From Malus domestica (lineage: Eukaryota; Streptophyta; Magnoliopsida; Rosales; Rosaceae), in contig NC_091671.1 of assembly GCF_042453785.1 (NCBI RefSeq), positions 36,223,001 to 36,287,000 on the forward strand: DNA of 64,000 nt, written 5' to 3'. Below are positions 2,280 through 23,517 of this stretch, piece by piece. Below the pieces are notes generated by a model. That model saw only the letters and a list, made by a program, of their open reading frames with translations, was not told the DNA's origin and made no database searches. How positions within the stretch are numbered: position 1 is the stretch's first letter; every line of letters begins with the position of its first letter. The position numbers were made by a program, and so were the translations under genes.

Positions 2280-2760
2280 TGTTGATGCACAAAATCAGTG
2301 AGGACTTTGGTACAACAAAAAGTGTTAAGTTTGTGACCTTCACTAGATTGCTCCGGTCACTAGTGTGAATAAGTATGTAAATGGATAGGGACAGGGAAGC
2401 AAACACAAGATGTACATGGTTTACCTAGATTGGCTACGTCCACGAAGTAGAGGAGTTCTCATTAATTGTGAAGGGTTTACACAAGTACATAGGTTCAAGC
2501 TCTCCTTTAGTGAGTACTAGTGAATGATTTAGAACAAATGACATTAGGAAATATTATGAGAGAATGATCTCTATTTATAGAAGAGAGTTTCTAGTTTCAT
2601 TTTGACATTGACACGTGTCGTGTTGTGATTTGCTTCTGATGTCGACACGTGTTGCGCTGTGATTGGCCTCCTGGTTGGAGGGAAACTCTTCTGGGTCCTT
2701 GACGGTATAACGTTGACTGGTGCTCAGTAGTTTCGGGATTGGTCAAATATGGTACAAACA
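2280..2760 (-). repeat. 3' LTR of the Tat element
   Basis: It is 481 bp with TG...CA ends and matches 23518-23998 along its full length. The element-sense polypurine tract lies immediately inside it at 2761-2772. Confidence 0.92.
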
Positions 2761-4089
2761 ATGCTCCCCTAAGTTCCCGAGTGAGGGAATCTCCTCGGTT
2801 GGGAACTTGCAAGATCCAAGCCATTGAGTAATCACGAAACTTCTAAGTACTGAAGTGTGGTATCATTTTCACTTGCCTTATCTGTCTCATATGTAGATGT
2901 GGCATCTTCTCTGGAAGTACTTTTCCTCCATCCAGGGGTGGTATCTTTAACCGATGAAGATGCACAAGGTAATGTATCAATTTCACTTGAAGCTTACTTG
3001 TAGTTTCGGGCTTGGTCAAGTGTGATACAAACCCTATAGTAGGAGTCCCCCAAGTTGCCGAGCTAGGAGATTTGTCGAATGAGGTAACAGACAAGGTAAT
3101 CAATCAGACTTCCAAGCAAACAACCTGGATTTGAGGTTAGACTTCGGCTTCCGATTGATTGTTCTCCTTCTCCTTGTATCGTAAACAGCAACAAGGATAA
3201 GGAGAAGCAAATGGAGAAGAGATGATATGAGATACTTTTGCTTTTGAAGAAGTAACTTTCCACATGCTTATTCTTGAACTAGGCTGGAGGGTTTTCTGGT
3301 TTCCTCTAATGTATAAGGCCGACTCAAGAATTTGAGGGTCAAAACAAGTCCTTCAAATCTAGAGTACGTTCGACCCTGATGATATGAGATACTTTTGCTG
3401 TTGACAAAGTAGTGGATGTATCGGAACGCGTTCTGTTACACTTGTCTCCACATGCTTCCTTGTATCATTCTCACTTGCCCTATCTATTCTTCAGGCAGAT
3501 GTAGTATCTTATCTGAAAGCATAAGATGTTAAAGATGAGTACTCGAGAGCAATGCCAGGTAAGTAATCAGGCAAGGGGTTCCAGGCAGTCATTTCCTGAC
3601 TGGAAGCTTGATTCCAAGTGCTGACTGATTGCTCTCTTTCTCCTTGTCTTGCAGGTAAGAATAAGGCCAAAGGAAAAGACAGGGAAAAAGCATGATATGG
3701 GATACTCTTGCTTTTAACCCTGATGATATGAGATACTCTTGCTCTGGTATGGCTTGTTTGCAGAGGTATTATCGGGAGAAAAAGAAGCTGAGTATTTCGA
3801 GAGACTCTGCTGAGAGTGCCCTCTCAGATGTGAAGAAAAGTTGAGCATTTTTTTTATTTGCAGGTCTGCCTGGCTGTGGAGGATGGAGGTCGACATATAT
3901 AGGAGCCTCCCTAACAATAAGTAGTAGTGTTATTCCTTTACCCTTCTTGGTCATAGCAATGTAGTGGGAGCTGCAAGCTTCACGTGTTTTAACTTTGTCA
4001 GGGCACTTTGAAAAAGTGGTCTGTGGTATCTGGAAAGCTGATGTTGCATGTGAAGATTGCAGACAAGCTTTATCCAAGGAAATCTGGTT
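2761..4089 (-). other. Tat 3' internal region, non-coding
   Basis: It begins with the polypurine tract and holds no credible coding region. Degenerate echoes of the LTR end and tract (gtagtttcgggcttggtcaa near 3000 and ctcccccaagtt near 3050) suggest past internal duplications. Another echo lies near 6100-6260. Confidence 0.5.
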
Positions 4090-4835
4090 CTTGAAGTTCG
4101 GAGAGCGGTGCCTCTTCGGTTTTCGAACATGCAATCCTGTCGGGGATCTGGCTCTCGAGATTCCGAGAACGGTGCCTCTTTGATTTTTGAGAAAGTAATC
4201 CTGTTGGGAGTTTGACTCTTGAGATTCAGAGAGCAGAGTCTCTTCGATTTTTGAGAAAGTAATCATGTTGGGAGTCCGGCTCTCGAGATTCGGAGGGCGG
4301 TGCCTCTTCGATTTTTGAGCACGTAATCCTGTTAGGAGTCTGGCTCTCGAGATTCGGAGAGCGGTGCCTCTTCGATTTTTGAGAAAGCAATCCTGTTAGG
4401 AGTCTGACTCTTGAGATTCGGAGAGTAGTGTCTCTTTGATTTTTGATAAAGTAATCTTGTAGGGAGTCTGGCTCTCGAGATTATGAGAGCAGTGTCTCTT
4501 CGATTTTTGATAAAGTAATCTTGTATGGAGTCTGACTCTTGAGATTCGAAGAGCAGTGTCTTTTCGATTTTTGAGAAAGTAATCCTGTTGGGAGTCTGGC
4601 TTTCGAGATTCGGAGGGCAGTGCCTCTTCGATTTTTGAGCACGTAATCCTGTTAGAAGTCTGGCTTTCGAGATTCGGAAAGCGGTGCCTCTTCGATTTTT
4701 GAGATTGCTCTCGAGATTCGAAGGGCGGTGCCTCTTCGATTTTTGAGCACGTAATCCTGTTGGGAGTCTGGCTTTCAAGATTTGGAGAGCTGCGCCTCTT
4801 CGATTTTTGAGCAAGCAATCTTGTTGGGAGTGTTT
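4090..4835. repeat. 64-bp tandem array (about 12 units)
   Basis: The unit contains ggtgcctcttcgatttttga and gagtctggctctcgagattc. The tgcctctt/gtctctt phrase recurs at about 4107, 4171, 4235, 4300, 4364, 4428, 4492, 4556, 4620, 4684, 4728 and 4792. Spacing is 64 bases except for one shortened unit near 4684-4728. Since 64 is not a multiple of three, the open frames crossing it change frame in each unit and are not a real protein. Confidence 0.85.
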
Positions 4836-5135
4836 TCTCGAATGTGAGTAAAGGTTGGGCATTTTTGCCAGTCTACCTTGCCACGGACCACGGAGGTTAA
4901 CACACATTGGGACTTTCTAGTTATCAAGCAGTGGTGTTGTTCTTTTACCCTTGTGGGTAATAGTAGGGTAGCTGGATCTTCAAAATTTATGTGTCTAAAC
5001 TTTGTCAGAGATCTTTGGCAAAATTATATGTGGTACCCGAGGAGCTGATGTTGCGTGTGGAAAGTGATGCCTCTTCGGAATCCGGAGAATGGTGCCTCTT
5101 CAATTTTGAACCAACGGCCTTGTTGCCCTTTCTTT

Positions 5136-5140
5136 TATAA
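5136..5140 (+). promoter_or_regulatory. TATA box of the antisense accessory gene
   Basis: tcttttataagggcacc at 5131-5147 has a good plant TATA context. It lies 110 bases before the ATG at 5250, on the strand opposite to the host retroelement. A start site near 5165-5170 would give an 80-base leader. The assignment is inferred from sequence only. Confidence 0.6.
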
Positions 5141-5249
5141 GGGCACCAATTGTGTGCAAGAAGTACATTCAGAGAGTTATTGCTTGTAGGAATTTTCCCC
5201 TTACTTCAGAGATTTATTGCACCTCATTTCTCCTTCATCATTTCTGAGA

Positions 5250-5924
5250 ATGTCTGGCCCATCCGACCGTCGTTTTGACTTGAACTTTGGTGAAGAGGTA
5301 GCCATGCCTTCTCAAGACAAAATATATCGCCCATCCTTCTTATCCCATACCGGTCCTCTTACCGTTGGGGACTCTATGATGAAGAATGATATGACCGCTG
5401 CGGTGGTGGCCAGTAACCTTATAACTCCCAAAGATAACAGACTACTTTCCAAACGGTCTGATGAGTTGGCTGTTAAGGATTCTTTGGCTCTCAGTGTTCA
5501 GTGTGTAGGTTTTGTGTCTAATATGGCTCAACTCCTATTTGCTCAAACCCGCCAAGTTGAATCATTGGCGGCTGAAGTGATAAGTCTCAAATAGGAGATC
5601 AGAGGGCTCAAGCATGAGAATAAACAGTTGCACAGGCTCGCACATGACTATGTTACAAGCATGAAGAGGAAGCACGACCAGCTGCAGGAATCTGATGGTC
5701 AGATTTTACTTGATCATCAGAGGTTTGTGGGTTTGTTCCAAAGGCATTTATTGCCTTCGTCTTCTGAGGCTGTATCGCGTAATGAAGCTCCAAATGATCA
5801 ACCTTCGGTGCCTCTTCATTCTGGGGTTCTGCCTAGTACTGAGGCTCCGAATAATCACCTTCTGGTGCCTCATCTTTTTAGGGCTCTACCGACTGCTGAG
5901 ACTTCTCCTGAGCAACCTTTGTGA
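5250..5924 (+). pseudogene. Antisense accessory ORF of the Tat element (one nonsense mutation)
   Basis: The frame opens MSGPSDRRFDLNFGEE and runs 224 codons to TGA at 5922-5924, broken only by TAG at 5592-5594. Upstream and downstream halves are in the same frame, so a single substitution (probably CAG to TAG) disabled it. No protein domain is recognisable. The N-terminal third is polar. A helical, coiled-coil-like stretch surrounds the stop (VESLAAEVISLK, then EIRGLKHENKQLHRLAHDY). A degenerate proline-rich repeat of about 20 residues forms the C-terminus (EAPNDQPSVPLH / EAPNNHLLVPHL / TSPEQPL). I recall near-identical hypothetical proteins from Rosaceae annotations; this is memory, not a search. 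It lies between integrase and 3' LTR and runs against the element, as do the antisense ORFs described for Tat relatives such as maize Grande. It has its own TATA box and AATAAA. Function is unknown. Confidence 0.72.
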
Positions 5925-5991
5925 AGGCTCATTCTTGTTTGTTTATTTTGATTCATGTATATGTACATATTTGTAACTTATCAGAGATATC

Positions 5992-5997
5992 AATAAA
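5992..5997 (+). terminator. Poly(A) signal AATAAA of the antisense gene
   Basis: AATAAA lies 68 bases past the stop at 5924, after a T-rich, TGTA-containing stretch (catgtatatgtacatatttgta) typical of plant far-upstream elements. With the TATA box at 5136 it makes a self-contained transcription unit. Confidence 0.55.
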
Positions 5998-6443
5998 CAA
6001 GTTTTACTTCATTTCAACGTATTGTGTTAAATACACCAATGCCTTCTTCACTAAGTTCTTTGAATTTTTCCTTTTGTTGAAGCTTTGTGAGTGAAGCATG
6101 TAGGTTGAGGTAGTGCTCCCTTAATTTCCCAAGTGAGGAAAACTTCTCGTTTGTAGACTTGAAAAATCCAAGTCATTGAGTGGTCGTGAGACTTCCGAGT
6201 ATCAAGGTGCAGTATCATATGGTAGGAATCCCCCAAGTCTCCGGTCGATGGAGTTGACGAATGAGGCATTTCCTTTCTAAATGGTAGCCAAAAACTCCTT
6301 CTTCATATATATTTGTTATGAAAGTTATTAGGCCCAAAGAAGAGGAGGCCTAGGTAATTTTTTTTTCGATTTTTTTTTTAATTTTCGAATTTTCGAATTT
6401 TTGAATTTTTGAATTTCCGAATTTTTTAATTTTCGAATTTCAG

Positions 6444-6446
<3 letters not shown>

Positions 6447-6484
<38 letters not shown>
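6447..6484. repeat. (AT)19 microsatellite
   Basis: An uninterrupted AT dinucleotide run, preceded by a degenerate aattttcgaatt array from about 6360. Confidence 0.95.
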
Positions 6485-6576: not shown

Positions 6577-6610
6577 GCTTCACACTATCTTGATCAAGAT
6601 AGTGTGAAGC
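6577..6610. repeat. Perfect 34-bp palindrome, copy 1
   Basis: The sequence reads gcttcacactatcttga and then its exact reverse complement, with no spacer. It recurs exactly at 7051-7084 and with one change at 7234-7267, and decays into cttgatcaagagtgtg in the array downstream. Confidence 0.9.
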
Positions 6611-6985
6611 TTTTGTAGGTGAAGCTTTTGTGTTGAAACTTTGTAGGTCAAGCTTTTGTGGGTCAAGCTTTTGTTGGTCAAGCTTTTGTAGGTGAAGCTT
6701 TTATGGGTCAAGCTTTTATAGGTGAAGCTTTTGTGGGTCAAGCTTTTGTGGGTGAAGCTTTTGTAGGTGAAGGTTTTATGGGTCAAGCTTTTATGAGTCA
6801 AGCTTTTATGAGTCAAGCTTTTGTGGGTGAAGCTTTTGTGAGTAAAGCTTTTGTAGGTGAAGCTTTTGTGGGTGAAGCTTTTGTGGGTCAAGCTTTTGTG
6901 AGTCAAGCTTTTGTAGGTCAAGCTTTTGTGTTGAAGCTTTTGTGGGTGAAGCTTTTGTGTTGAAGCTTGTGTAGGTGAAGCTTTG
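6605..6985. repeat. 15-bp tandem array (aagcttttgtgggtc type)
   Basis: About 23 units of a 15-bp motif alternate between aagcttttgtgggtc, aagcttttgtaggtg and close variants. Because the unit is a multiple of three, long frames stay open on both strands (repeated GQAFV on plus, THKSF on minus). These are composition effects and I do not call a gene. HindIII-like aagctt recurs in nearly every unit. Confidence 0.85.
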
Positions 6986-7050
6986 AAGTTGAAGCTTTGT
7001 AGGTGAAGCTTTGGAGTTGAAGCTTTTGTTGGGTACCATGAATTGATTTT

Positions 7051-7084
7051 GCTTCACACTATCTTGATCAAGATAGTGTGAAGC
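7051..7084. repeat. Perfect 34-bp palindrome, copy 2
   Basis: Identical to 6577-6610, including a shared upstream ttgttgggtaccatgaattg-like context. This shows that a larger block was duplicated with the palindrome at its edge. Confidence 0.9.
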
Positions 7085-8095
7085 TTTTGAGAATTTGTAG
7101 TTGTCCTCCATTGATGAAGCTTTTGTTGGTGAAGCTTTTGTGTTGAAGCTTTTGTAGGTGAAGCTTCGGAGTTGAAGCTTTGTAGGTGAAGCTTTGGAGT
7201 TGAAACTTTTGTTGGGTACCATGAATTGATTTTGCTTCACACTATCTTGATTAAGATAGTGTGAAACTTTTGAGAATTTATAGTTGTCTTCCATTGATTA
7301 AGCTTTGTTGAATTTCCCTTTTTTTTAATTTTTTTTTTAATTTTTTAAGAAACTAGAAATTTGAAAATGTGGGAGAGACAACATATACAAATTTTGATTC
7401 CACACTGTTAAGCAAGAGATTATGATGCAAGCCACACCTTGTAATAGTCGAAGGTTTGGATGAACCATATAAATTGAATTTGCTTCGAACAGTCTTGAAT
7501 TTGTTTCGAATGTTTGAGAATTGTAGTTGCCCTCCATTGATGAATCTTTTGTTGGCACCATAAATTGGTTTTGCTTCACACTGTCTTGATCAAGAGTGTG
7601 TGAAGCTTTTGAGAATTGTGGTTGAACTTCTTTGATGAAGCTTTTGTTGGCACAATAAATTGGTTTTGCTCCACACTGTCTTGATCAAAAGTATGTGAAG
7701 CTTTTGAGAATTATGGTTGCCCTTCATTGATGAAGCTCTTGTTGTTGGCACCATAAATTGGTTTTGTTTCACACTGTCTTGATCAAGAGTGTGTGAAGCT
7801 TTTAAGAATTGTGGTTGCCCTCTATTGATGAAGCTCTTGTTGGCACCATAAATTGGTTTTGCTTCACACTGTCTTGATCAAGAGTGTGTGAAGCTTTTGA
7901 GAATTGTGAGGGTTGAACTCCTTTGATGAAGCTCTTATTGGCACCATAAATTAGTTTTGCTTCACACTGTCTTGATCAAGAATGTGTGAAGCTTTTGAGA
8001 ATTATGGTTGAACTCCTTTGATAAAGCTCTTGTTGGCACCATAAATTGGTTTTGCTTCACACTGTCTTGATCAAGAGTGTGTGAAGCTTTCTACG
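7085..8095. repeat. Tandem array of 95-101-bp units containing decayed palindromes
   Basis: The phrase ttggcaccataaattggttt followed by a tcttgatcaaga core recurs near 7580, 7675, 7775, 7870, 7970 and 8065. Each unit also carries gtgtgaagcttttgagaatt. It is an expansion of the palindrome-containing block at 7051. Confidence 0.8.
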
Positions 8096-8414
8096 AGTTG
8101 TAATGTTTGCATTGTTACAGAGGGGAAATGTTTAAAGCTGATGCAAGAGGGCTGAATAGCTTGATCTTCGTATGCCATGCATTGAAGTTGTTGTTGGCTT
8201 GCAATAAGACTTTGTTGGTGACTATAACTCTTGTTGGGCATAAATGCTCCTCTAGTTGAGTTGTCAAGTTTGAGGGTTTCTGATTATTTGTGAATGCTAG
8301 GAGTTCACATGTACAAGTTGTACCACTCGTCTTCTGGTAGGTGGAATGAATGGTGAGTTGCTTTCATCACTTGGTTGGTGGTACGAAGATGAGTTCTTTC
8401 TTCCCCTGGTTGGT

Positions 8415-8865
8415 GGCATGAATGACAAGTTGCCAAATGATATTAGAGTACGGGCTGTACATTTCATCACCTGGTTGGTGGCATGAAGGAGAGTATGGGT
8501 TGTACATTTCATCACCTGGTTGGTGGCATGAAGGAGAGTACGGGTTGTACATTTCATCACCTGGTTGGTGGCATGAAGATGAGTTTCTTCTTCACCTGGT
8601 TGGTGGCATGAGTGGCAAGTTGCCAAATGATATTAGAGTACGGGTTGTACATTTCATCACCTGGTTGGTGGCATGAAGGAGAGTACAGGTTGTCCATTTC
8701 ATCACCTGGTTGGTGGCATGAAGATGAGTTCTTTCTTCACCTGGTTGGTGGCATGAGTGGCAAGTTGCCAAATGATATTAGAGTATGGGTTGTACATGTC
8801 ATCACCTGGTTGGTGGCATGAAGGAGAGTACAGGTTGTACATTTCATCACCTGGTTGGTGGCATG
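8415..8865. repeat. 45-bp tandem array (cacctggttggtggcatg)
   Basis: Units of 45 bp built on catttcatcacctggttggt alternate with longer units carrying gccaaatgatattagagta. The 45-base period keeps plus-strand frames open (SPGWWHEGEYGLYI repeats), which I regard as spurious. The array continues after the Athila insertion at 17012-17060, so the Athila landed inside it; the target site is gcatg. Confidence 0.8.
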
Positions 8866-10344
8866 TGGTAGGATTAAAAGCACACCACAAAGTAGCCCAC
8901 AATAATCCTATTGATTTTCCTTATTAACACTAAAATTTGTCGATTGTAGCATACAAAAATAAGGGTCTTTCCCGCAGAAGATTGTTTGATCCAAATACTT
9001 AAAATGTCACAAAAACAATAATTATTAAACTAACTTACACTTACCAGCCACCAAACAATAATTATTAAACTAACTTATTAAACTAACTTACACTGACCAG
9101 CCACCAAACAATAATTATTAAACTAACTTACACTTATCCAAATAATAATTATTAAACTAACTTACACTTATCCAAATGCAACGAAATTTTATACACATAA
9201 ACTAGACACACCAAGCTATGCTCACACAAATGTTTGGGATTTTTTGAGTTGATTAGCTATTTAAATTAAATCGGACAAAACAGGACCTCAACAAGTTTTA
9301 AATAATACCAATAGATTTTAATTCACAAGTTAAGAAAACGAGTTAGGGGAATTGTTATCCACCACCAAATAATCATGCAAACATGTTATGTTTCATTCAA
9401 ATTCCTTTTATTTCCGGATGAAGATGCTCAAGTTGGCTCAATGTTAGAACACAACCTATTACTCTTTCTTACGTAGTATGTTAAGAGAATGGCGTTTTCA
9501 ACTTAACGTAGTCCCTAGCATGCAATCTAGAATGGCATGTTCATAGATTTAACAAGTAGAAATCATTAAGAACGAAAAGAGTTTGAGTCATCACAAGGCA
9601 TGGTAAGTACTGGCGTTGTCTTACTTATCCTAGAAATCGGTTCACATGTTAACCACAATTAACAAGTGCTACTCTAGAACATATGTAGGTCCTCATTTAA
9701 CAAGGGCAGGTAAACATATATTCATAGCATTAAAATCCTAGATATGCTCACTATGTATGCATCCATAGAAACATATAAAGAATTTATCAATGACATAAGT
9801 AGTGAAACAATTTTCATCCTTTCATAAAAGTCATTCAAACAAAATATCACAATAAACTTACAATCATATTCGGGGCTTCAAAACAGCCCCTAACTACTAA
9901 AAATTAGTTACACATTATTCTTAAATTAAACCAAAAGTAAAACATGGATTTGAGAAGATAAAACCAAGAAAAGAAGATCTGCCGTGCTTTTGTGCCTGCT
10001 GCTTCTGCTCTCTGTCAGTTTCTTTGCTTTTCTCTCTGCTGCTTCCGTGCCTGCCCCCCTGTCAGCTCTTTTTCTCCGCACAGTTTTTCTGTGCTTCTCT
10101 GTCTGTCACGTCTCTCTGCTCTGCGTCTCCTCCCCGCACACTTCTCTGTGCTTTCTGCTTCTCACTTCGCTTTGCAGTCTGCCTATGTCCTTTTATTTTA
10201 GTCTTTTTCTTTCAGTCCGTGTCCCTCGTCAGTCGCGCACTCCTTTCCTATTTTATTTCAGTCTTTCCTCCACTCTCTTTGTTTTATTTCTTTTCTTTTT
10301 GCTGTGCTGCACTCCCTTCTTCTTTTCCTTTGTTTATTCCTCCA
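8866..10344 (-). repeat. 3' LTR of the Athila element (truncated)
   Basis: It is colinear with 15380-16764 from TGGTAGGATTAAAAG up to tgtttattcctcca. The last 240 or so bases present in the other LTR are absent and replaced by inverted integrase sequence. At 9015-9180 the unit aataattattaaactaactt is present about four times, against once in the other LTR. The C/T-rich stretch at 9980-10340 opens leucine- and cysteine-rich frames that are not genes. Confidence 0.88.
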
Positions 10345-10740
10345 CTCTCTTTGATGTGTGGGGTATTGGCTATGGATTATGTTTCTAAATGGGTGGAAGC
10401 AAAAGCCACCAAAACTAATGATTCAAAAGTTGTTTCAGATTTTATTAAGAGTAACATCTTTGCAATATTTGGAATACCTAGAGCAATCATTAGCGATGGA
10501 GGGAGTCATTTTTGCAATCGAACATTTGAAGCGTTGCTTAGGAAGTACAATGTCACACATAAGGTGTCTACACCTTATCATCCGCAAACTAGCGGTCAAG
10601 CAGAAGTATCAAATCGTGAGGTGAAGCAAATTTTGGAGAAAACTGTGAGTCCTAGAAGGAAGGATTGGAGCATGCGCTTGAACGATGCATTGTGGGCTTA
10701 TAGGACTGCATTGTTGAGATCTTTGATGTGTGAGGAATAA
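10345..10740 (+). pseudogene. Inverted integrase core of the Athila element
   Basis: The plus-strand frame reads FDVWGI..., then [23 protein letters not shown] and [20 protein letters not shown], ending WAYRTA. These are the D, D and E blocks of a retroviral-type integrase catalytic core. It runs opposite to the rest of the element, whose zinc-binding half of the same integrase is on the minus strand at 10764-11071. The segment has lost the residues between VWGI and DYVSK. It ends in a second copy of the VEIFDV coding phrase on the plus strand (10713-10731), which forms one arm of a hairpin at 10719-10763. An inversion during reverse transcription or repair explains this best. Confidence 0.85.
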
Positions 10741-10763
10741 ACAATACCTCACACATCAAAGAT
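10719..10763. repeat. Hairpin at the inversion junction
   Basis: The arms atctttgatgtgtgagg (10719-10735) and their reverse complement (10747-10763) flank an 11-base loop. A further copy, accccacacatcaaagatct, lies at about 10786-10806 in normal element orientation. Confidence 0.85.
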
Positions 10764-11180
10764 GGAAAAGGTCCCATGAAATCAATACCCCACACATCAA
10801 AGATCTCAACAACCAAAATAGGGGTTTGTGGCATTTGATTTCTTGGGCCCAAGTTACCTGTTTGTTGACAACGATCACATGTTGCACAAAACTCGTACGC
10901 ATCCTTAAACAAACTAGGCCAATAAAAACCACTCTCTAACACCTTCAGCGCTGTCCTCTTTGCTCCAAAATGGCCACCACATGCATAAGAATGACAAAAA
11001 GTTAGAATAGATTTAAACTCAGATTCGGGGACACACCTTCTAATCAATTGATCAGTGCAATATTTCCACAAATAAGGATCATCCCACTCGTAGTATTTGG
11101 CAGTTTTGACAAGCTTATCTTTTTGAGCACGTGTAAAATCATCCGGAATCTTTTTGATGACCTTATAATTGATAATATCT
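10764..11180 (-). pseudogene. Athila integrase N-terminal zinc-binding region
   Basis: The minus-strand frame contains an HHCC integrase zinc module: H-S-Y-A-C-G-G-H-F near the start and CATCDRC near the end, with FYWPSLFKDA between. It continues to VVEIFDVWGIDFMGPFP and then breaks at the rearrangement. The frame continues upstream (WKYCTDQLIRRC; DDFTRAQKDKLV) to a TGA in TDP*YAD near 11187, explained by TGG to TGA. Confidence 0.8.
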
Positions 11181-11185
11181 GCATA

Positions 11186-11725
11186 TCAAGGGTCAGTAAT
11201 CTTTAATGAAAACAGTTGCTCATCTGGAAAACTTTCACGTAAAGGGATGAGATCTTCCTCTGTGTTTGAATGCACAAGTCGGCTAAGATGATCTGCTACA
11301 ACATTCTCACTCCCTTTCTTATCCTTGATCTCCAAGTCAAACTCTTGAAACAGAAGTATCCATCGAATGAGTCGTGGTTTTGCATCTTTTTTTGTGAGTA
11401 GATACTTCAAAGCTGCATGGTCAGAAAACACAATAACTTTAGTCCCAATCAGATAAGATCTAAATTTTTCTAAAGCAAATACAACAGCTAGAAGCTCCTT
11501 CTCTTTTGTTAAATAATTCAACTGTGCATCATTGAGTGTTTGAGATGCATAATAGATGACATATGACACTTTGTTGACACGCTGCCCTAGAACTGCACCA
11601 ACATCATAGTCTGAAGCATCGCACATTAACTCAAAAGGTAAACTCCAATCTGGTGGCATGATTACAGGAGCCGTGGATAACAACTCCTTAAGCTTATTGA
11701 ATGCTACCACACACTCTTCATTCAT
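11186..11725 (-). pseudogene. Athila RNase H domain
   Basis: The frame of 179 codons begins in the RT-RNase H connection ([14 protein letters not shown]). It covers the Ty3-type RNase H with its catalytic acidic positions: D in [17 protein letters not shown] in [17 protein letters not shown] and D in [16 protein letters not shown]. It ends after DHLSRLVH. It degrades the RNA strand during reverse transcription. Frameshifts separate it from the RT upstream. Confidence 0.85.
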
Positions 11726-11787
11726 ATCAAATGTTACATCCTTTTAAAGTAAACGACACAAGGGTCTAGAAATCATTGAGAAGTCCT

Positions 11788-13020
11788 TCATAAACCTACA
11801 GTAGAAACCTGCATGTCCAAGAAAAGAACGAATCTCCTTGACAGTAGTAGGGATGGGTAAGAACTAACAAGTTCTACTTTAGATTTATCAACTTCAATTC
11901 CTTTTTCAGATATGACATGCCCTAGAACTAATCCATGCGAAACCATGAAATGAAATTTTTCCCAATTTAACACTAGATTAGTTTCTTGACAACGTTTTAA
12001 AACTAGGGACAGATTATGTCAAAAGAATCACCATAAACTGAAAAATCATCCATGAACACTTCAATTATTTTCTCAATCATATCAGAAAAGATACTTACCA
12101 TACACCTCTGAAATGTGGCAGGGGCGTTGCACAGTCCAAACGGCATCCTCCGGTATGCAAATGTGCCAAATGGACATGTGAAAGTCGTCTTTTCTTGATC
12201 CTCCGGAGCAACTGCAATTTGATTATACCCAGAATAGCCATCAAGAAAACAATAATGAGAATGATCAGTTAGCCTTTCTAACATTTGATCAATGAATGAG
12301 AGTGGAAAGTGATCCTTGCGTGTGGTGCTATTTATCTTTCGATAGTCTGTACAGACTCTCCAACTATTTTGCACACGTGTAGACATTAGCTCATTAGCTT
12401 CATTCTTAACAAATGTGACTCCAGATCGTTTAGGGACTACTTGAATAGGGCTTACCCACTTGCTATCTGAAATAGGATATATGATGCCAACATCAAGAAG
12501 TTTGATAACCTCTTTTTTTACGACTTCCATCATGAGTGGGTTTAAACGGCGTTGAGCTTCCCTTGTTGGTTTTGCACCTTCCTGCAACATAATCCTATGC
12601 ATGCATGTAGCTGGATTTATACCTTGATATCTGCAATGCTCCAAGCTATGGCAGTTTTGTGATCCTTCAGTACCCGGATCAGTTTTCCCCCTCTTCTGTT
12701 GAAAGTTGTGACGATATGATGACCGGTAATGTTTCATCCTCTACCAAAAATGCATACTTCAAATGTTCAGGAATTGGTTTAAGCTCCAATTTGGGTGCCT
12801 GAATCACAGAAGGAAGAGTTTTTTCGTTAGAAGTAGGAAGAGAAATAAAATAGGAAGAACACTTACCACGAATTGGTGAAAGAGACTCAAGAGAGGCCAC
12901 TATTTGGATTAATTCTTCTTCAATGTGCTCTGAATAATTAAAATTTCCATGTGTAATGCTATGCACTAATGCCTTCTCTAAATTATCTTGTCCCACACCT
13001 TCATTAAAACAATCCTCCAC
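11788..13020 (-). pseudogene. Athila reverse transcriptase (frameshifted)
   Basis: Three overlapping frames make up the RT. Linker sequence (DCFNEGVGQDNLEKALVHS) is at 13020-12679. Fingers and palm lie at about 12600-12003 (GAKPTREAQRRLNP, WVSPIQVVPKRSG, VCTDYRKINSTTRKDHFPL, FLDGYSGYNQIAVAPEDQEK, RRMPFGLCNAPATFQRCM) with the catalytic motif VFMDDFSVYG. The thumb (VLGHVISEKGIEVDKSKVEL) is at 11973-11788. At least one frameshift lies near 13020, one near 12700 and one or more in 11790-12000. The enzyme copies the element RNA into DNA; this copy cannot be translated whole. Confidence 0.87.
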
Positions 13021-15266
13021 AAATAGTCAAACACATCAATAGACAAACAAGATTCTAATTCACTAGGATACCTCATAGCATTGAAGATTCTGAACTTGAC
13101 GTTTTCCCCCTCAATTTCCATGGTTAAGGTACCATCGTAGACATCAATCTTCGTCCGTGCTGTTCTAAGGAATGGTCTTCCCAATATAAAAGGAAGTGCA
13201 GTAGGCATAGGATCATGTTCCATCTCAAGAACAAAAAAGTCAGTGGGAAAAATGAGCTCATTCACTTGCACAAGTACATCCTCCAATAGGCCTTTGGGAT
13301 ATCTATTTGAACGATCTGCCAACTGGATAACTACCTTTGTTTCCTTCAAGTCTCCAAGGTTCAATGACTCATACACTGAATATGGCATCAGATTGATGGA
13401 TGCCCCCAAATCACACAATGCTCTCCCAAACTTTTTGCCTCCAATTACACATGGAATGGTAAAGCTACCGGCATCTTTCAACTTCGGTGGCAGCTTTCTC
13501 TGCAAAACAGTTGATACTTCCTCGCTTAATGCCACAGTTTCTTGATCATTGAATCTCCTCTTGTTCGTACAAAGCTCTTTAAGGAACTTTGCATACTTGG
13601 GCACTTGTTTTATGGCATCTAAAAGAGGTAAGTTCACTTGGACTTTCCGGAAAGTATCCAAGATTTCCTTATCAGTTTGCTCTTTCTTAGACTTCATAAA
13701 CCTACGAGGAAAAGGAATAGGGACACATGAGTTAAATGAATTTTGAACTTCTTTACTTACCTTATCAGAATCTTTTTTGTTCAATTCTGTATCTTTAGGA
13801 GAATTTTCAGTTTCTGTTGAAGCCTCATCTTGCTCAAAAACTTCTTTTCCATTCCTTAAAGTCACAACATTCATCTGCTCCGCATTTGGATTCACCACAG
13901 TTTGGCTAGGCAACCTTCCTGGTTGGTGTTGTTGCCCCATTAAACTTGCTAACTGACTCATTTGGCGCTCAAGGTTTTCAATTGCTTTGTCTGTTTTCTG
14001 TTGATGAGATTGAGTAGAGTTAGCTAAAGAAGCAATTAAATCCTCAAGAGACTTACTTGGAGCTTGTTGTTGTTGAGGCTGAAATGGTGCCTGCGGTTTT
14101 GCTTGAAAGAAGCCAGACGGACGGTTATAGTTGTTGGGAACAGATTGTTGTCCGTTATCTTGATTGTTCCACTTTAAGTGTGGATGATCACGCCAACCTG
14201 CATTATAGTTGTTGGAATAGGGATCATACTTTTGCCTTTGTTGCCCTTGAAATCCTCCTAATGCATTAGCTTGCTCAAGACCACCTTGATCCATCAACGA
14301 AGGGCACATGTCTGTGGCATGTCCCATCATTGAACATACACCACACACCTGTTTTGGAGCCACAATAACCTGTTGCACAAGATTAGTCAAGTTAGCTAAT
14401 TGTAATTCAATACTAGAATTAGCACTTACCTCGTTAACTTTCTTAAAAGGTAGCTCATCTCTCCCTCCAAATTGTCGTGTATTGCCAGCAATGTTCTTTA
14501 ATAATGCCTTAGCATTAGTAGGCGTCTTGTCCATGAATGCTCCTCCACTTGCTGCATCAAGCATTACACGATCAGTACCATACAATCCCTCATAAAAGTA
14601 TTGTATTAGTAAATGCTCTGAAATCTGATGGTTAGGACAAGATGCAACCAAATATGTGAACCGCTCATAGTAATCTCCAAAGGGCTCTCCATGTTGTTGT
14701 CGGATTGCACATATGTCTTTCCTTATGCTTGCAACTTTTGTGGCCGGAAAATATTGCTCCAAAAATGCGTGCTTCACCTGGTTCCATGTGTTCATTGATC
14801 CCGGAGGTAAATTGTAAAGCCACTCCTTTGCCTTAGCTTCTAATGTAAATGGGAATGCCCTCAACTTGACTTGCTCCTCATCCACATTTGCTGGTCTCAT
14901 TCCTGAGCATACCACGTGAAACTCCATGAGATGCTTGTTGGCATCCTCTGTTGAGAAGCCATGGAATTTAGGCAAGTAGTGAATCATGCCGGACTTAAGC
15001 TCAAATCCTCCTTCTGCATTTGGATATGTGATGCACAATGGTTGTTGATCCGTATTTGGCATTGCCAACTCCCTCAATGTACGGTTATCAGCCATGCCTT
15101 CTTGTGGTTCCTCCTCCTCTTCCGAACTTAAATGTGGTGGAGAAGATGGTGGTAAAGACACCGATGCACACTTTTGCTTGATTTTTCTTTGAAGCTTTCG
15201 AAATGTTCGTTCAATCTCTGGATCGTAGGAAACTAGATCAATGCTCTTAGACTTTCGAGTATGCAT
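12978..15266 (-). CDS. Athila gag-protease polyprotein (open, 762 codons)
   Basis: A single uninterrupted frame starts MHTRKSKSIDLVSYDPEIER. Residues 90-260 form the plant retrotransposon gag domain (HYLPKFHGFSTEDANKHL, LPPGSMNTWNQVKHAFL, FGDYYERFTYLVASCPNH). A CCHC knuckle at about 308-321 reads CGVCSMMGHATDMC. A glutamine-rich linker follows. The aspartic protease at about 610-720 carries LCDLGASINLMPYSVY and FILGRPFLRTARTKIDV; DLGAS in place of DTGAS is usual for Athila-type elements. The last 17 or so codons are out of frame owing to a frameshift that cuts the link to pol. Gag packages the element RNA; the protease would cleave the polyprotein. Confidence 0.88.
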   Translation of the reverse strand: MHTRKSKSIDLVSYDPEIERTFRKLQRKIKQKCASVSLPPSSPPHLSSEEEEEPQEGMADNRTLRELAMPNTDQQPLCITYPNAEGGFELKSGMIHYLPKFHGFSTEDANKHLMEFHVVCSGMRPANVDEEQVKLRAFPFTLEAKAKEWLYNLPPGSMNTWNQVKHAFLEQYFPATKVASIRKDICAIRQQHGEPFGDYYERFTYLVASCPNHQISEHLLIQYFYEGLYGTDRVMLDAASGGAFMDKTPTNAKALLKNIAGNTRQFGGRDELPFKKVNEVSANSSIELQLANLTNLVQQVIVAPKQVCGVCSMMGHATDMCPSLMDQGGLEQANALGGFQGQQRQKYDPYSNNYNAGWRDHPHLKWNNQDNGQQSVPNNYNRPSGFFQAKPQAPFQPQQQQAPSKSLEDLIASLANSTQSHQQKTDKAIENLERQMSQLASLMGQQHQPGRLPSQTVVNPNAEQMNVVTLRNGKEVFEQDEASTETENSPKDTELNKKDSDKVSKEVQNSFNSCVPIPFPRRFMKSKKEQTDKEILDTFRKVQVNLPLLDAIKQVPKYAKFLKELCTNKRRFNDQETVALSEEVSTVLQRKLPPKLKDAGSFTIPCVIGGKKFGRALCDLGASINLMPYSVYESLNLGDLKETKVVIQLADRSNRYPKGLLEDVLVQVNELIFPTDFFVLEMEHDPMPTALPFILGRPFLRTARTKIDVYDGTLTMEIEGENVKFRIFNAMRYPSELESCLSIDVFDYLWRIVLMKVWDKII

Positions 15267-15361
15267 GTACTACAAAGAGTACCTGAAATAAAAACAAAAA
15301 CACTAATTGGATAAGAAAAGAAAACAATAGAAAAATAAGTAATTTAGAAATAACAATCCCC

Positions 15362-15379
15362 GGCAACGGCGCCAAAATT
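15362..15379 (-). other. Primer-binding site of the Athila element (tRNA-Asp type)
   Basis: ccccggcaacggcgcca on the plus strand lies directly inside the 5' LTR and equals the 3' end of plant tRNA-Asp as I recall it. Element-sense DNA therefore reads tggcgccgttgccgggg. Confidence 0.8.
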
Positions 15380-17006
15380 TGGTAGGATTAAAAGCACACC
15401 ACAAAGTAGCCCACAATAATCCTATTGATTTTCCTTATTAACACTAAAATTTGTCGATTGTAACATTTAAAAATAAGGGTCTTTCCCGCAGAAGATTGTT
15501 TTATCCAAATACTTAAAATGTCACAAAAACAGGGTGGCTGTCTCCACTGACCAGCCACCGAACAATAATTATTAAACTAACTTAAACTTATCCAAATGCA
15601 ACGAAATTTTATACACATAAACTAGACACACCAAGCTATGCTCATACAAATTTTTGGGAGTTTTGGAGTTGATTAGCTATTTAAATTAAATAGGACAAAA
15701 CAGGACCTCAACAAGTTTTAAATAATACCAATAGATTTTAATTCACAAGTTAAGAAAACGAGTTAGGGGAATTGTTATCCACCACCAAATAATCATGCAA
15801 ACATGTTATGTTTCATTCAAATTCCTTTTATTTCCGGATGAAGATGCTCAAGTTGGCTCAATGTTAGAACACAACCTATTACTCTTTCTTACGTAGTATG
15901 TTAAGAGAATGGCGTTTTCAACTTAACGTAGTCCCTAGCATGCAATCTAGAATGGCGTGTTCATAGATTTAACAAGTAGAAATCATTAAGAACGAAAAGA
16001 GTTTGAGTCATCACAAGGCATGGTAAGTACTGGCGTTGTCTTACTTATCCTAGAAATCGGTTCACATGTTAACCACAATTAACAAGTGCTACTCTAGAAC
16101 ATATGTAGGTCCTCAATTAACAAGGGCAGGTAAACATATATTCATAGCATTAAAATCCTAGATATGCTCACTATGTATGCATCCATAGAAACACATAAAG
16201 AATTTATCAATGACATAAGTAGTGAAACAATTTTCATCCTTTCATAAAAGTCATTCAAACAAAATATCACAACAAACTTACAATCATATTCGGGGCTTCA
16301 AAACAGCCCCTAACTACAAAAAATTAGTTACACATTATTCTCAAATTAAACCAAAATTAAAACATGGATTTGAGAAGATAAAACCAAGAAAAGAAGATCT
16401 GCCGTGCTTCTGTGCTTGCTGCTTCTGCTCTCTGTCAGTTTCTTTGCTTCTCTCTCTGCTGCTTCCGTGCCTGCCCCCCTGTCAGCTCTTTTTCTCCGCA
16501 CAATTTTTTTGTGCTTCTCTGTTTGTCACGTCTCTCTGCTCTGCGTCTCCTCCCCGCACACTTCTCTGTGCTTTCTGCTTCTCACTTCGCTTTGCAGTCT
16601 GCCTATGTCCTTTTATTTTAGTCTTTTTCTTTCAGTCCGTGTCCCTCATCAGTCGCGCACTCCTTTCCTATTTTATTTCAGTCTTTCCTCCACTCTCTTT
16701 GTTTTATTTCTTTTCTTTTTGCTGTGCCGCACTCCTTTCTTCTTTTCCTTTGTTTATTCCTCCATCAGTCCATTATTTCTGCTCCCTGCCCTCTCTCTCT
16801 TTTCTTTTATTCTTCCACTCAGCCCGTGTCCTCCACTGCTTTCTTTCTCTGTGTCTCTCCCACTCCCATTTGCTTGAAATTTATCTTAAAACAAATTTAA
16901 CTGCACATTAACACAAGGTAAGGTAAAATGCCACAATTTTAACACAAAAACATCACAAAGACTTTAGAAATGGATGGTATAAATGCATGAAATATATGAG
17001 TGATCA
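15380..17006 (-). repeat. 5' LTR of the Athila element (complete, 1627 bp)
   Basis: It runs from TGGTAGGATT to GAGTGATCA on the plus strand, so element-sense ends are TG...CA. The perfect gcatg duplication follows at 17007-17011. It contains a pyrimidine-rich tract at 16390-16870 and an AT-rich end. Confidence 0.9.
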
Positions 17007-17403: not shown

Positions 17404-18822
17404 TTACTTGTAATAGTACTTCAAGTGATCAGCGTTCCATAGATGGCCAATGGTCTTGCCATCGGAGCTTCTAAACTTGTAAGAGCCAGGGCGACTGATG
17501 CCAACAACTTCAAACGGTCTATCCCAATTTGGACTAAGTGTTCCTTCACTCGGGACTTTGTCGTAGAGTAATCTTTTCTTCAATACCCAGTCCCCCACTT
17601 TGAAAGAACGAGGTTTTACCCTTGAGTCATAGTAGTTGGAGATGCGCTGCTTGTAGGCGACATTCCTCAAGTGAGCTTGGTTTCTGTGTTCCTCGACTAG
17701 ATCTAAGTTGAGGGTAAGTTGTTTGTCATTTTCGCTTTGCACGTAGTTCTGGACTCGGAACGTTACTTGCTCAAGCTCAACTGGGACAACTGCCTCTGTA
17801 CCAAAGGCAAGTGAGAATGGGGTTTCTCCTGTTGATGTCCGATACGAAGTGCGGTATGACCAAAGAACTTAAGGTACAAATTCTGGCCAACAACCTTTAG
17901 CCTTGTCCAAGCTGGTTTTCAAAGTTTGCTTGATTATTTTGTTGATGTTTTCAACTTGTCCATTAGACTAGGGATGAACTGGGGAGGCAAAACATAAGTT
18001 GATGTTGAACTTAGAGCAAAACATCCTGAACTTATTGTTGTTGAACTGTCGCCCGTTGTCAGTGACTATCGCATTAGGAATGCCGAATCTGCAAAGGATG
18101 TTCTTCCATACGAAGTCTTCTATTTTTGCCTCAGTAATGGTTACCAAGGGTTCTACTTCGGCCCACTTTGTGAAGTAGTCAACTGTAACGATTGCATATC
18201 GGACCTTGCCCTTCCCTGCAGGCATTGGGCCGATCAAATCAAGTCCCTATTGGGCAAAGGGCCAAGGGCTGATCATGGGAGTGAGCGGCTCGGGACGAGA
18301 GTGGGGAATATTTGCGTAGCATTGACACTTATCACATGAATGGGATATTCTGATGGCATCTTAGTAGAGTGTTAGCCAGTAATATCCTTGGCGAAAAGCC
18401 TTGTGTGCTAGGGATCGAGATCCAGCATGATTTCCGCAAACTCCTTCATGTATTTCCTGAAGGACAGTTTCCGCCTCTGCAGGCGTAAGGCATCTTAGGT
18501 ATGGTAGGTTAAAACCCCGTTTGTAGAGTTGGTCATTAATGATCAAGTAACGGGTAGCCTTGTATCGAATCTGCTTAGCTTGAACTTTGTCATTTGGAAG
18601 GGTGCCATGAGCAAGGAATCTATAAATCGTGGTAATCCAACTATCCCCCTGTTGTAAGTTGCACACTTCCGCAGCCATGGTGCTTGGTGCTGCTAACAAT
18701 TCGACTTGAACTTTTCTCCCAATCTTGTCTTCCACCGCTAAGGCGAGGCGAGCCAAAGCATCTGCATGACTGTTTGCTGCTCGAGGAATTTGGGTGATCT
18801 GGTAGTGGAAGTGTTGGAGCAA
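17404..18822 (-). pseudogene. Tat integrase with end of the archaeal-type RNase H (nonsense mutations)
   Basis: One continuous minus frame is broken by stops at 18361-18363, 18247-18249, 17968-17970 and 17869-17871. In order it has the C-terminal helix of the second RNase H (ITQIPRAANSHADALARLA) and the HHCC zinc region (EIHEGVCGNHAGSRSLAHKA ... SCDKCQC). The catalytic core follows with D in VTVDYFTKWAEVEPL, D in AIVTDNGRQFNNNKF and E in SNGQVENINKIIKQTL. The C-terminal domain (FKVGDWVLKKRLL, GTLSPNWDRPFEVVG) ends HLWNADHLKYYYK. Integrase inserts the cDNA into the genome. The stop at 17968 is CAG to TAG and that at 18247 TGG to TAG, both C-to-T type changes. Confidence 0.88.
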
Positions 18823-18825
18823 TAA

Positions 18826-20325
18826 TTATGTTTGTGCCAGATATGCTGCCATAGAGCTATCCTTAGCATCAAAGTTGTTGGTAGCCTGGTTAACCACCAA
18901 TTGGGAGTCACTGAAGATATCAATTCGTTTAACCCCAAGGTGTTTGGCCAAACGTAAGCCTGCTAGGAGGGCTTCATATTCGACCTCATTGTTCGACGCC
19001 TTGAATTTGAAACGAATAACATACTCTATCACCACTTTGTCAGGGGTCGTAAGGATTAGTTCTGTTCCACAACCTTGTTGGTTGGACGAGCCATCAACAT
19101 ATAGACTCCATGCTGGGGCTGTTGGTTCTATTTTCTGAGCTTCCGAGGGTAATGAAACCACTTTTTTAGGCATAGAAACAATCTCAACAGGATATGTGAA
19201 GTCGGCGATGAAGTCTGCCACTGCTTGGCCCTTCTCAGCTGGCTTTGGTTGGTAAGAGATGTTAAACTCACCCAATGCTATCGCCCATTTGATAATTCGC
19301 CCGGAAGTGTCAGGACTTTGGAGTATCTGTGGAAGAGGATGATTGGTAAGCACGATGATGGAGTGTGCTTGGAAGTAAGAGCGAAGTTTTCGAGCAGACA
19401 TGACCAATGATAAAGCCAATTTCTCGATGTTGGAGTATCGTGTCTCTGCATCTTGTAAGGCCTTGCTAGCGTAGTAGACAGGCCGTTCGACATTACCATC
19501 ATTTCGAATGAGAACGGAACTTACTGCTGAAGCCGATACTGACGGATAGATAATGAAAGTGTCACCAACCTCAGGTTTGGAAAGCAGATGGGCTTTACTC
19601 ATGTAGTCTTTGAGGTTCTTGAATGCCTCAGCACATTCATCAGTCCATGTAATGTACTTCTTACTTCCCTTAAGTGCTTTGAAGAAAGGAGCACATATGT
19701 CTGTGGCTTTAGAGATGAACCTAGTTAAGGCTGCCACCTTGCTAGTAAGGCTCTGGATGTCTTTTGAAGTTACCGGTTCCTTCATGTCGAGGATTGCTTT
19801 GATCTTCTCGGGATTAGCCTCAATGCCTCGTTGGCTTATCATGAAACCTAAGAATTTGCTAGAGCTTACGCCGAAGGCACATTTGTTGGGGTTCAACCTC
19901 ATTCGATACCTCTTCGGAATGGTGAAAGTTTCAGATAAGTTGGTGATGTGTTGGTCAGCGTGTTTACTCTTGACTAGCATATCATCAACGTAAACTTCCA
20001 TGCTCTTCCCAATCTGTTCGGCGAACATTGAATTGACCAGTCTCTGATAAGTCACTCCTGCATTCTTTAGGCTGAAAGGCATGACTTTATAGCAATATAG
20101 TCCTCTGTTAGTAGTAAAGGTTGTGTGTTCTTAGTCCGGAGGGTTCATGAGGATTTGGTTGTATCTTGAGTAAGCATCCATGAAGCTCAGAAGTTCACAC
20201 CCTACCGTAGAGTCTATAAGTTTGTCTATGAGAGGAAGAGGAAAACTATCATTCGAGCATCCTTTGTTTAGGTCGGTGTAATCGACACACATTCTCCATA
20301 AGACCTTTTGGAGCAGGAAACTTTC
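18826..20325 (-). pseudogene. Tat reverse transcriptase, RNase H and archaeal-type RNase H
   Basis: In one frame with stops at 20131-20133 (CAA to TAA) and 18826-18828. RT palm motifs are WRMCVDYTDLNKGC, FMDAYSRYNQI, YCYKVMPFSLKNAGVTYQRL and the catalytic MEVYVDDMLVKS. The thumb carries LGFMISQRGIEANPEKI. A Ty3 RNase H follows (VERPVYYASKALQDAETRYS), with degenerate acidic sites. Then comes a second RNase H: WSLYVDGSSNQQGCG, NNEVEYEALLAGLRLAKHLG and IDIFSDSQLVVNQ, retaining D, E and D. Carrying both RNase H types is diagnostic of the Tat lineage. Confidence 0.88.
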
Positions 20326-21465
20326 CTAGGTCGGATTCTTCTTATCAAGGACAACATTTGCTACCCACATTGGATAATTGACTTCGCGGACGAAGCCTAT
20401 GCCTTTGAGTTTTTCAACTTCTGCCTTCATTGCCTTGTACCGTTCAGCGTCATAAGATCTTCGCTTCTGTCTCACTAGCTTGGTCTTGGGGTCAATACTT
20501 AAGCGATGACAGATGATATCGGGAGAGATACCTGGCATGTCCTCGTATGACCAGGCGAAGACCTCCGTGTTCTCTTGCAAAAAAAAGATCAATGCCAACC
20601 GAATGGGTGGTGACAAGGTGGTGCCAATCTTCACCATGCGATCCGGATAATCTTTTGAGATTGAGACCTTCTTCAACTCTTCATCGGGTTGTGCTTGCTG
20701 GGTGAAAGAGTCATCTCGAGGATCGTCGGGTTGACTGTTGCCATCGTGAAGATCCAAGTTAGCTTCGTTTGGGCTGGTCTTTATGACTTGGTCATGTATA
20801 GAAAGGGTTTCCTTGGGCACATGCAGGTGCTGTTGCTTGACCGAAGTGTTATAACATGATCGTGCACTAAGTTGATCTCTTCTGATGTAACCATTGCCAT
20901 AGGGGGTGGGAAATTTCATCAACAACATATGTGTGAATACCATGGCCTTGAGATCATTGATGCTTGTGCGTCCGAATATGACATTGTATGTCGTTGGGCA
21001 ATCAACCACCAGGAAGTTAGTGGTAATGGTAGTTGTGTAAGAGCCTGTACCAATGGTGAAAGGTAAGTGTATGCTCCCCAAAGGTTGCACGATATTACCG
21101 AAGAAGTTTATCAGAGGGGAAATCGAGCGATCGAGCAAGTGTTCAGCTACATTAAGTGCCTTGAAAGTTTCAGCAAACATGATATTGACCGAAGCCCCCG
21201 TGTCTACCAGGATTCGTCGTACTTCAAAGTTGGCTATGTGAGCTTCCACGATCAGTGGGTCGTTGTGAGGGTAGATGATACCTCTTTCTTCCTCGAGGTA
21301 GAAACATATTGGATCCCAGTTAGGCTTTTGATGCTTACCTCCGTTGATGTCTTCCACGTGAAACACTTGGTGGCCAGACCTTAAAGCTCGTTCGCTATTT
21401 TTCATGGCCCTGTTGGAAGATTTAGATATGGGTGTGTCACCACTTATGGAATATATCACATTCAC
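20326..21465 (-). pseudogene. Tat aspartic protease and start of RT
   Basis: The frame of 379 codons begins MNVIYSISGDTPISK. The protease has the active-site motif RRILVDTGASVNIMF and the second strand pair TYNVIFGRTSINDLKA. A linker of about 120 residues leads to the RT N-terminus (EVFAWSYEDMPGISPDIICH, EVEKLKGIGFVREVNYPMWV). It ends at TAG 20328-20326. The same frame resumes downstream without any shift, so protease, RT and integrase were one pol frame. Confidence 0.87.
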
Positions 21466-22790
21466 TTGGCGTTGGTTACTGTTACCCTTGGAGGGTGAAT
21501 GAAGAATTGATCAATTTTTCCTTCACGTGCCAAAGCTTCAATATGATCACGAAGGGTGATACACTTCTCGCCGTCATGGCAGTTATGCTCGTGGTAGCAG
21601 TAAAACCTGCCCGTGTTCTTTGTGGGCTTGTAATCCGGGTGCCTTGGCTTTGGCTTCGGTATCAGGTGTGCTATGCTGGGGTAAATGGCCACGCATGTGG
21701 TGTTTAAAGGTGTGTATGCCTCATACCTTGGGGTAGGGGTTGTCCTGACATGTGCTTGACCTACTGTGTTAACTGCCTAAGGTCGAGGATTATCATGGCG
21801 ATACCTTTGGTTATCGAGGTAGTGTCCCTTACTCATTTTACCAAAATGAGACTGGTGAGGATGAAAATCTTTCCTTTTGCAATGAGATTGATATGTCTGT
21901 TGACTTGGCAAAGTATTTAAGTAAGGCAGGGGGAGGTACCGCTGCCGTTTGGAAGGTCGAGGTCTTCTCATTTGGTTGGATCTGGCTTCCACTCCCTACT
22001 TGCTGATAAGGGTTGGTTGTGAGGGGTTTCCCTTGATATGTCCTTGCCTCGGCGGAGGCATGGTTGTAAGCCTATGCCATCACCTCAGAGTAAGTCTTCC
22101 AAGTGTTGGCATTGATCATGTACTTGAAGAAACAATCACGTAGGCCTGCTGTGAAAGCCTTGATGGCGGTCTTGTCATCTGCCTCAGCGCAGCAAGAATA
22201 CTCATGGCTGAAACGACCGGCATACTCTCGTAGTGACTCGTCTGGCTTCTGGCGAATAGTGTACAAGTCATCTGCAAAATGCAAGCGATCGGTCTAGAAG
22301 ATGTGTTGAGAGACAAACAGTTTCCTCAGTTCCTCAAACGAATCTACTGTTTCAGGTGGAAGATGGCAATACCAATTTAGAGCTCCGTCAGAGAGAGTGG
22401 AGGGGAAGAGAAGACATCGCTCTTCGTCAGTGTGCATCCGATATGCCATGGTGGACTCAAAGAGGTTAAGGTATTCAATTGGGTCTTCCCTTCCAGTATA
22501 GAGTTGTAAACCAAGCTTTTGTTTTGTCTTCGCTTGAATAGGGGTGTCAATGATCCTCCTTATGAGAGGGCTAGGCCTGGGTTGGTTCTAGTCAGGTATC
22601 TCGGCCCGATGTTCGGCCTTCAACTTGTTTACTTCCTCAAGGAGCTGTAGGACGAGGGGGTCTTGAGTGGAGTCATGTACCAATGGGATTTTCTTTCGTA
22701 AGTCTCCATCGCCTCTTGGAAGTAGGAAAGTTTGAGCAAGGGCGTGTGATTTTTCCTTGGACTCGCCTACTGACTTTTAGGGCGAGTCTG
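21466..22790 (-). pseudogene. Tat gag core and zinc knuckle (frameshifted)
   Basis: The gag capsid-like region reads in frame at about 22560-22070: LGLQLYTGREDPIEYLNLFE, LSDGALNWYCHLPPETVDSF, then TAG at about 22297 (CAG to TAG) and KPDESLREYAGRFSHEYSCC, AFTAGLRDCFFKYM. The C-terminus, in another frame at 21692-21466, carries a CCHC-like knuckle (FYCYHEHNCHDGEKCITLRD) just before the protease. At least one frameshift separates the two. This would be the RNA-packaging protein of the element. Confidence 0.8.
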
Positions 22791-23411: not shown

Positions 23412-23517
23412 ATTGGAAAGGGATGCCTGGTCAAAAGAGAGTGTACGAATGGTGGAAACCAGCTTGACAAAGCTGAAGAGAGTGGGAATAAGTGTCGTTC
23501 CCACAGACGGCGCCAAA

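Follow-up and report, generated by a model that had tools for sequence, protein, structure and literature searches.

aORF-A, the name that we gave to an antisense open reading frame lying between pol and the 3' LTR of a Tat-type retrotransposon of apple, belongs to a real, large protein family of conserved length. We consider it fairly probable, as one joint explanation, that aORF-A is a Tat-family antisense accessory gene of the apple tribe, that source elements make from it a dimeric adaptor modulating elements of their own family, and that the copy analysed here is a dead insertion, its frame decaying at about the neutral rate. All positions refer to the window, the 64,000-nucleotide stretch of Malus domestica DNA that was analysed.

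An antisense frame in a Tat-type element

aORF-A has 224 codons (675 bp) and lies on the plus strand at 5250..5924, where the stop-to-stop frames 5190-5594 and 5595-5924 are separated by a single in-frame TAG (5592..5594, +); aligned relatives have a sense codon at this place. The initial annotation of this DNA had described the same frame with its one TAG, a TATA box at 5136 and an AATAAA at 5992, and all of these were found in the sequence: the TATA-like box occupies 5134..5140 (+; TATAA at 5136-5140) and the poly(A)-signal-like AATAAA 5992..5997 (+). Composition shuffles of the ORF stretch contained 11.3 stops on average, and none of 5000 contained one stop or fewer. A chance ORF was ruled out by these shuffles and by the homologues described below.

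The outer element is bounded by a 3' LTR at 2280..2760 (-) and a 5' LTR at 23518..23998 (-), paired by blastn. They have TG..CA ends, flanks of five bases (CAAGC/CAAGT) and 95.0% identity over 481 bp, in agreement with the 5% divergence reported before. Its gag-pol (17404..23594, -), assembled from ORF pieces and Pfam matches, is broken by stops. In one frame, the Pfam order was gag, RT, RNase H, RVT_3, H2C2 and rve, with integrase last; PF17917/PF17919 was followed by PF13456, an RVT_3-type RNase H (E 3.1e-17). A second RNase H (RVT_3) after the RT-linked one is a mark of the Tat clade. By its gag-pol domain order and this criterion, the outer element is a Tat-type Ty3/gypsy element. In its 1480 codons, the gag-pol frame contained 20 stops, a roughly fourfold excess over the 5.1 predicted from LTR divergence without mutation weighting; this might reflect an element already non-autonomous when it inserted, faster mutation at stop-prone sites, or a local shift of the frame.

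As the initial annotation had it, the ORF runs antisense to gag-pol between integrase and the 3' LTR; that stretch also holds a nested element, which the annotation did not mention. The layout is of the Retand type: the ORF is at least 600 bp long, antisense and placed between pol and the 3' LTR, with one stop in this copy. Tandem arrays occupy much of the outer element's remaining length. A repeat search located a 64-bp array upstream of the ORF (4083..4831, +) and arrays of several unit lengths, including 15, 95 and 145 bp, between the ORF and the nested element (6604..8865, +). On both sides of the 64-bp array lies a duplicated block (3822-4059 and 4836-5066, 69%). Sequence comparison also detected, at 6114..6266 (+), a second, diverged copy of the sequence adjacent to the 3' LTR (2762-2866 and 3035-3084), with 75% identity over 105 bp and 78% over 50 bp. 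The LTR-adjacent sequence on the PPT side is thus duplicated just past the AATAAA of the ORF, which places the ORF between two PPT-like segments; this pair is perhaps a trace of how the antisense cassette was gained.

The nested gypsy element is younger and sits between the outer pol and the antisense ORF (8866..16764, -; ends approximate), as judged by LTR pairs and by pieces of gag, RT, RNase H and integrase. Its LTRs (9138-10344/15558-16764) are 98% identical over 1207 bp, and a further LTR pair in this region (8863-9077/15377-15584) is 90% identical. The integrase core domain was found at 10369-10584 (+) and the zinc-binding domain at 10652-11185 (-), together with the remaining gag-pol (-); the split strands suggest that sequence at the LTR side was locally inverted or rearranged. 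Elsewhere in the window, an F-box domain match at 438-1133 (-; 22 bits against a cut-off of 20.5) is probably a host gene exon, and inverted repeat arms at 24073-24851 and 30169-31021 are 78-88% complementary and 5.3-6.7 kb apart.

Two routes of expression would fit, one from the TATA at 5136 and one, drawn from computed gene models, by splicing of an upstream leader. With leader exons placed before it in some models, the gene is at most putatively self-contained, the term used in the initial annotation. The leader segment (3652..3852, +) was matched in tblastn by 5' exons of several Malus and Pyrus models (P0001, P0189, P0191, P0157, P0164, P0213 and P0215), and models P0189 and P0191 start at 3.65-3.77 kb. 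By our reading, a pyrimidine-rich stretch ending in CAG (5188..5208, +) is the apparent 3' splice site in P0189. The surroundings of the TATA box (5089-5202) matched the divergent metagenome relative P0133 with 61% in translation, across one stop in the window. Malus model P0157 has antisense exons inside the 3' LTR and at 2.9-3.85 kb (2381-3852), followed by aORF-A, so an LTR-driven spliced antisense gene is possible from this model.

The protein family and its predicted coiled coil

The initial annotation had proposed a protein search for intact relatives, and the search found them in large numbers. With X at the stop, 2065 of 2343 scored candidates matched at E<=1e-3; among the best 120 of the 2065, 115 are full length at exactly 224 aa, and all 120 are named Malus (Malus domestica, M. 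baccata). Another protein search (the third, alignment A3) again gave mainly the 224-aa crowd among the best 120 listed, and one 90% cluster of the family holds 2492 member sequences. A length-restricted search used a longer window reference with the region at 1-224, so that its filter left out this crowd; it yielded 97 matches from 666 candidates, of 226-719 aa, comprising 78 from Malus, 15 from Pyrus and 4 metagenome proteins. The taxonomic spread covers the best 120 matches per search and the range from 226 to about 720 aa, and relatives beyond Malus and Pyrus are possible. The metagenome-collection relatives P0133, P0136, P0160 and P0185 lie on contigs of 1.4-37.7 kb, which are probably plant DNA. 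In viral contigs, a search for DNA copies gave 45 pattern matches and no relatives.

Neither half of aORF-A had a Pfam match at E<=0.01, consistent with the earlier statement that it has no recognised domain, and the weak Pfam matches of 45 family members are mostly to generic coiled coils. A search by sequence for relatives of solved structure gave none at E<=0.01. We used AlphaFold2 to model the intact relative P0003 (alignment A2, 49 sequences). The model has helices at residues 47-57 and 60-167 and disordered ends, and the coiled-coil-like middle described in the initial annotation corresponds to these helices. In all, 84 residues had pLDDT>=90, with 93-99 in the helix blocks of 81-160; 85 of the 224 residues, mainly at both ends, were below 50, and the pTM was 0.34. 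On the DNA, the predicted long helix (codons 60-167) covers 5427..5750 (+). The disordered N-terminal part holds, at codons 24-32 (5319..5345, +), the family motif NIWxxSFxS with near-invariant N24, I25, W26, S29, F30 and S32, which reads KIYRPSFLS in this copy. The proline-rich C-terminal part is coded by 57-bp tandem repeats (2.1-2.3 copies; 5762..5900, +), the degenerate repeats that had been noted before.

Register analysis identified a leucine-zipper-like heptad at codons 103-138 (5556..5663, +). Nine of the 12 core hydrophobics of 99-148 fell in one a/d register (shuffle P=0.0013), in which the family residues are V103, V110, I117, N124, A131 and M138 at the a sites and L106, L113, L120, L127 and Y134 at the d sites; the four leucines form the heptad, with V/V/I/N at a. 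Across the eight source groups introduced below, 9 of 11 a/d sites were unchanged, compared with 11 of 39 other sites (P=0.0036). We infer from the model and this register that the helix looks like a dimeric zipper without a basic region.

Identity as a bZIP protein was considered and rejected, as a basic region before the zipper was not found. The bZIP spacing is N-x7-R-x9-L; the aORF-A consensus does not have it, position 109 being E. A bZIP family was also absent from the Pfam families listed (25 of 43) for aORF-A and its relatives.

TRP28 and longer gene models

Antisense ORFs are a known trait of Retand/Tat elements, as the initial annotation had stated, and examples are Grande gene23, RIRE2 and Silene Retand ORF4 (PMC7264820, PMC11963269). 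TRP28 (PF04195) is present in 61 of 63 tabulated Retand clusters and tandem arrays in about half of Retand elements (PMC11963269). The Tat/Retand aORF-3R resembles aORF-A in its position from pol to the 3' LTR, its antisense orientation and the tandem repeats alongside; it differs in that aORF-A is without the usual TRP28 and, in Pyrus gene models, adjoins a TRP28-type ORF.

PF04195 was absent from the five Pfam families of the window protein and, with 44 relatives added, from the 25 families listed of 43; it was not found at E<=1 in the three plus frames of 3501-17502. In tblastn, the TRP28-type segments of Pyrus P0194 and P0213 and of Malus P0204 and P0207 had no match inside the element at E<=1, and the two weak matches of the P0213 segment (E 0.72 and 0.95) both lay outside it. 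Whole Pyrus models at E<=1e-3 likewise revealed no TRP28-type ORF in the window.

In Pyrus models P0194, P0211, P0213, P0214 and P0215, the order of the parts matches the window and its strand: a leader at 3.7-4.1 kb (three of the five), aORF-A, a segment unmatched in the window, and antisense-of-pol sequence (four of the five, missing from P0213 only). In P0194, alone of 10 proteins scanned, the unmatched segment gave a weak TRP28 match, at E 0.00099 and with 19.7 bits where the cut-off is 26.2. This second ORF also follows aORF-A in two Malus baccata models, P0204 and P0207. From these sequences, the TRP28-type ORF and aORF-A appear to be adjoining parts of one element family, of which this element has aORF-A only. 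Three further Pyrus models, P0198, P0199 and P0202, continue after an aORF-A-type region with a different coiled-coil tail, about 200 residues long; the public name 'S ribonuclease' given to P0198 and P0202 is apparently wrong.

These models bear on the alternative of a longer antisense gene that has aORF-A as its first exon or its N-terminal part, running into the TRP28-type ORF or into the other coiled-coil tail, with the 224-aa form shortened in Malus. The Pyrus and M. baccata models that join aORF-A to TRP28-type sequence speak for it, as do those that join it to the different tail. However, all of them are predictions, and because four of the five Pyrus models run on into antisense-of-pol, the fusion may be an artefact. 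The preponderance of the exact length of 224 aa among the best 120 matches, together with the stop and AATAAA that follow the ORF in the window, also argues against a longer gene, and we regard it as unlikely.

Near-neutral copies, constraint between source groups and a proposed role for the gene

The LTR divergence (Jukes-Cantor, JC) was 0.0516, or 0.0258 per lineage, from which pure decay since insertion predicts 12.7-12.8 amino-acid changes and 0.43-0.54 stops. In this copy, 23 of the 224 sites depart from the Malus consensus, the stop included; part of these differences is presumably subfamily variation. Stop rates were similar in aORF-A (1/224) and in the one gag-pol frame checked (20/1480; Fisher P=0.51). 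The initial annotation had read a frame with only one stop as a sign of selection until recently. For this copy that conclusion does not follow, because decay alone predicts about half a stop.

In place of the dN/dS comparison that had been proposed, we used a protein-level stand-in with codons borrowed from the window; it gave near-neutral copies, against the expectation of selection, and constraint between source groups, in line with it. The within-copy set comprised 143 Malus proteins, each 224 aa long, after one outlier with at least 60 differences had been dropped from 144. As fitted per opportunity, the fraction of possible C-to-T/G-to-A replacements seen in at least five copies was 0.96 for CG, 0.92 for CHG and 0.51 for CHH, compared with 0.04 for other transitions and 0.02 for transversions, a spectrum that looks as expected of methylated, decaying copies. 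Over three frequency classes, the observed/expected ratio was 0.92-1.00 in the helix; radical changes, taken over the whole protein, gave 0.87-1.06. By these protein-level ratios, Malus copies vary like neutral decay.

For the comparison between sources, we chose eight groups: the consensuses M2, M3, Pyr1 and Pyr2 and the single proteins P0133, P0136, P0160 and P0185. P0187 (15 of 23 helix changes conservative) was not pooled with them. The 143 one-step replacements between groups included 7 radical helix changes where 30.6 were expected (P=5.7e-8); 72 of the replacements fell in the middle of the protein (23-167), where 93.0 were expected (P=0.0004). Conservative changes made up 57 of 72 helix changes between groups, compared with 67 of 134 among within-copy singletons (P=4.8e-5), and the distribution over regions also differed from the singletons (P=2.7e-5). 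Other results point the other way. Compared with variants in at least five copies, where 45 of 66 helix changes were conservative, the difference was not significant (P=0.071 for region and 0.18 for helix). Raw within-copy variation was also greater in the tails (15.2 vs 9.9 per site). Single groups were less uniform: Pyr2 had no region skew after mutation-class correction, though skewed by plain count (P=0.0006), P0136 had none by plain count (P=0.099), and Pyr1 had no excess of conservative helix changes (7/12). The depletion of radical helix changes between groups suggests selection in source elements.

The contrast of a/d sites between groups versus within copies (P=0.067, 0.075 and 0.65) and the one-copy stop count were each set aside as too weak alone for a selection test.

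If only the antisense RNA were functional, acting as dsRNA/siRNA or by interfering with gag-pol transcription, the protein would be incidental. Such a role has been proposed for plant antisense aORFs (PMC7264820), and the antisense position with TATA and AATAAA is compatible with it. It predicts neither the roughly four-fold depletion of radical helix changes nor a nearly fixed zipper core between source groups, and we give it a smaller chance than the longer gene. An old ORF passively carried by the element, with no function at all, would agree with the neutral-looking variation from copy to copy and with the stop in this copy; yet the inserted copies of any TE gene should decay, and the source groups show constraint, which makes this reading quite improbable. 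A captured host gene is very improbable: no relation to TRP28 or to Pfam families beyond generic coiled coils was found, as would suit it, but the 97 length-restricted matches are all from Malus, Pyrus or metagenomes, with no single-copy host gene recognised among them, a weak argument in that this search needs shared 5-residue words.

Our preferred explanation remains the accessory gene whose protein acts on its own family. In source elements, an antisense mRNA, started at the TATA at 5136 or spliced to an upstream leader, would encode a small protein that dimerises via the zipper-like coiled coil. The protein would display the conserved NIWxxSFxS peptide and a proline-rich tail, and the dimeric adaptor, probably nuclear like the Grande gene23 product, would modulate either the transcription of elements of its own family or one of their nuclear steps. 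Such an action is plausible because an own promoter and a nuclear product are reported for Grande gene23 (PMC7264820).

Other antisense genes offer partial parallels. PvRetro13 ORF2 and other ORFs annotated as Smc/Mis12-like are antisense as well (PMC7264820, PMC11963269), and the weak Pfam matches of aORF-A are likewise to generic coiled coils; aORF-A differs in being short, at 224 aa. In HTLV, HBZ is a bZIP factor whose RNAs are spliced or unspliced, and APH-2, -3 and -4 are without bZIP, APH-3 and -4 still suppressing 5' LTR transcription (PMC10186651). aORF-A shares with these genes an antisense placement close to the retroelement's 3' end; the analogy concerns layout alone, with no homology. 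Unlike HBZ, it is without a basic region, and an LTR-driven antisense transcript would be putative for it. It is possible, though doubtful, that apple-tribe Tat elements, independently of HTLV, evolved an antisense leucine-zipper protein, separate from TRP28 and sufficient without it, as a dimeric regulator of their own LTR. If this is true, a lineage without TRP28 still spread to very many copies.

The literature searched contained no description of the Malus/Pyrus aORF-A. New here are the TRP28-free Malus/Pyrus family, its coexistence with a TRP28-type ORF in gene models, the zipper-like core, and near-neutral copies as against constrained sources. Earlier work has not settled what antisense genes do in plant LTR retrotransposons (PMC7264820, PMC11963269). 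The aORF-A family offers a way to approach the question, with a short protein predicted to have a single helix and matched by about two thousand annotated sequences, neutral copies that can be set against constrained sources, and an element where searches did not find the usual TRP28 partner. The family also shows that public annotation lists many retroelement genes of apple as 'hypothetical proteins'.
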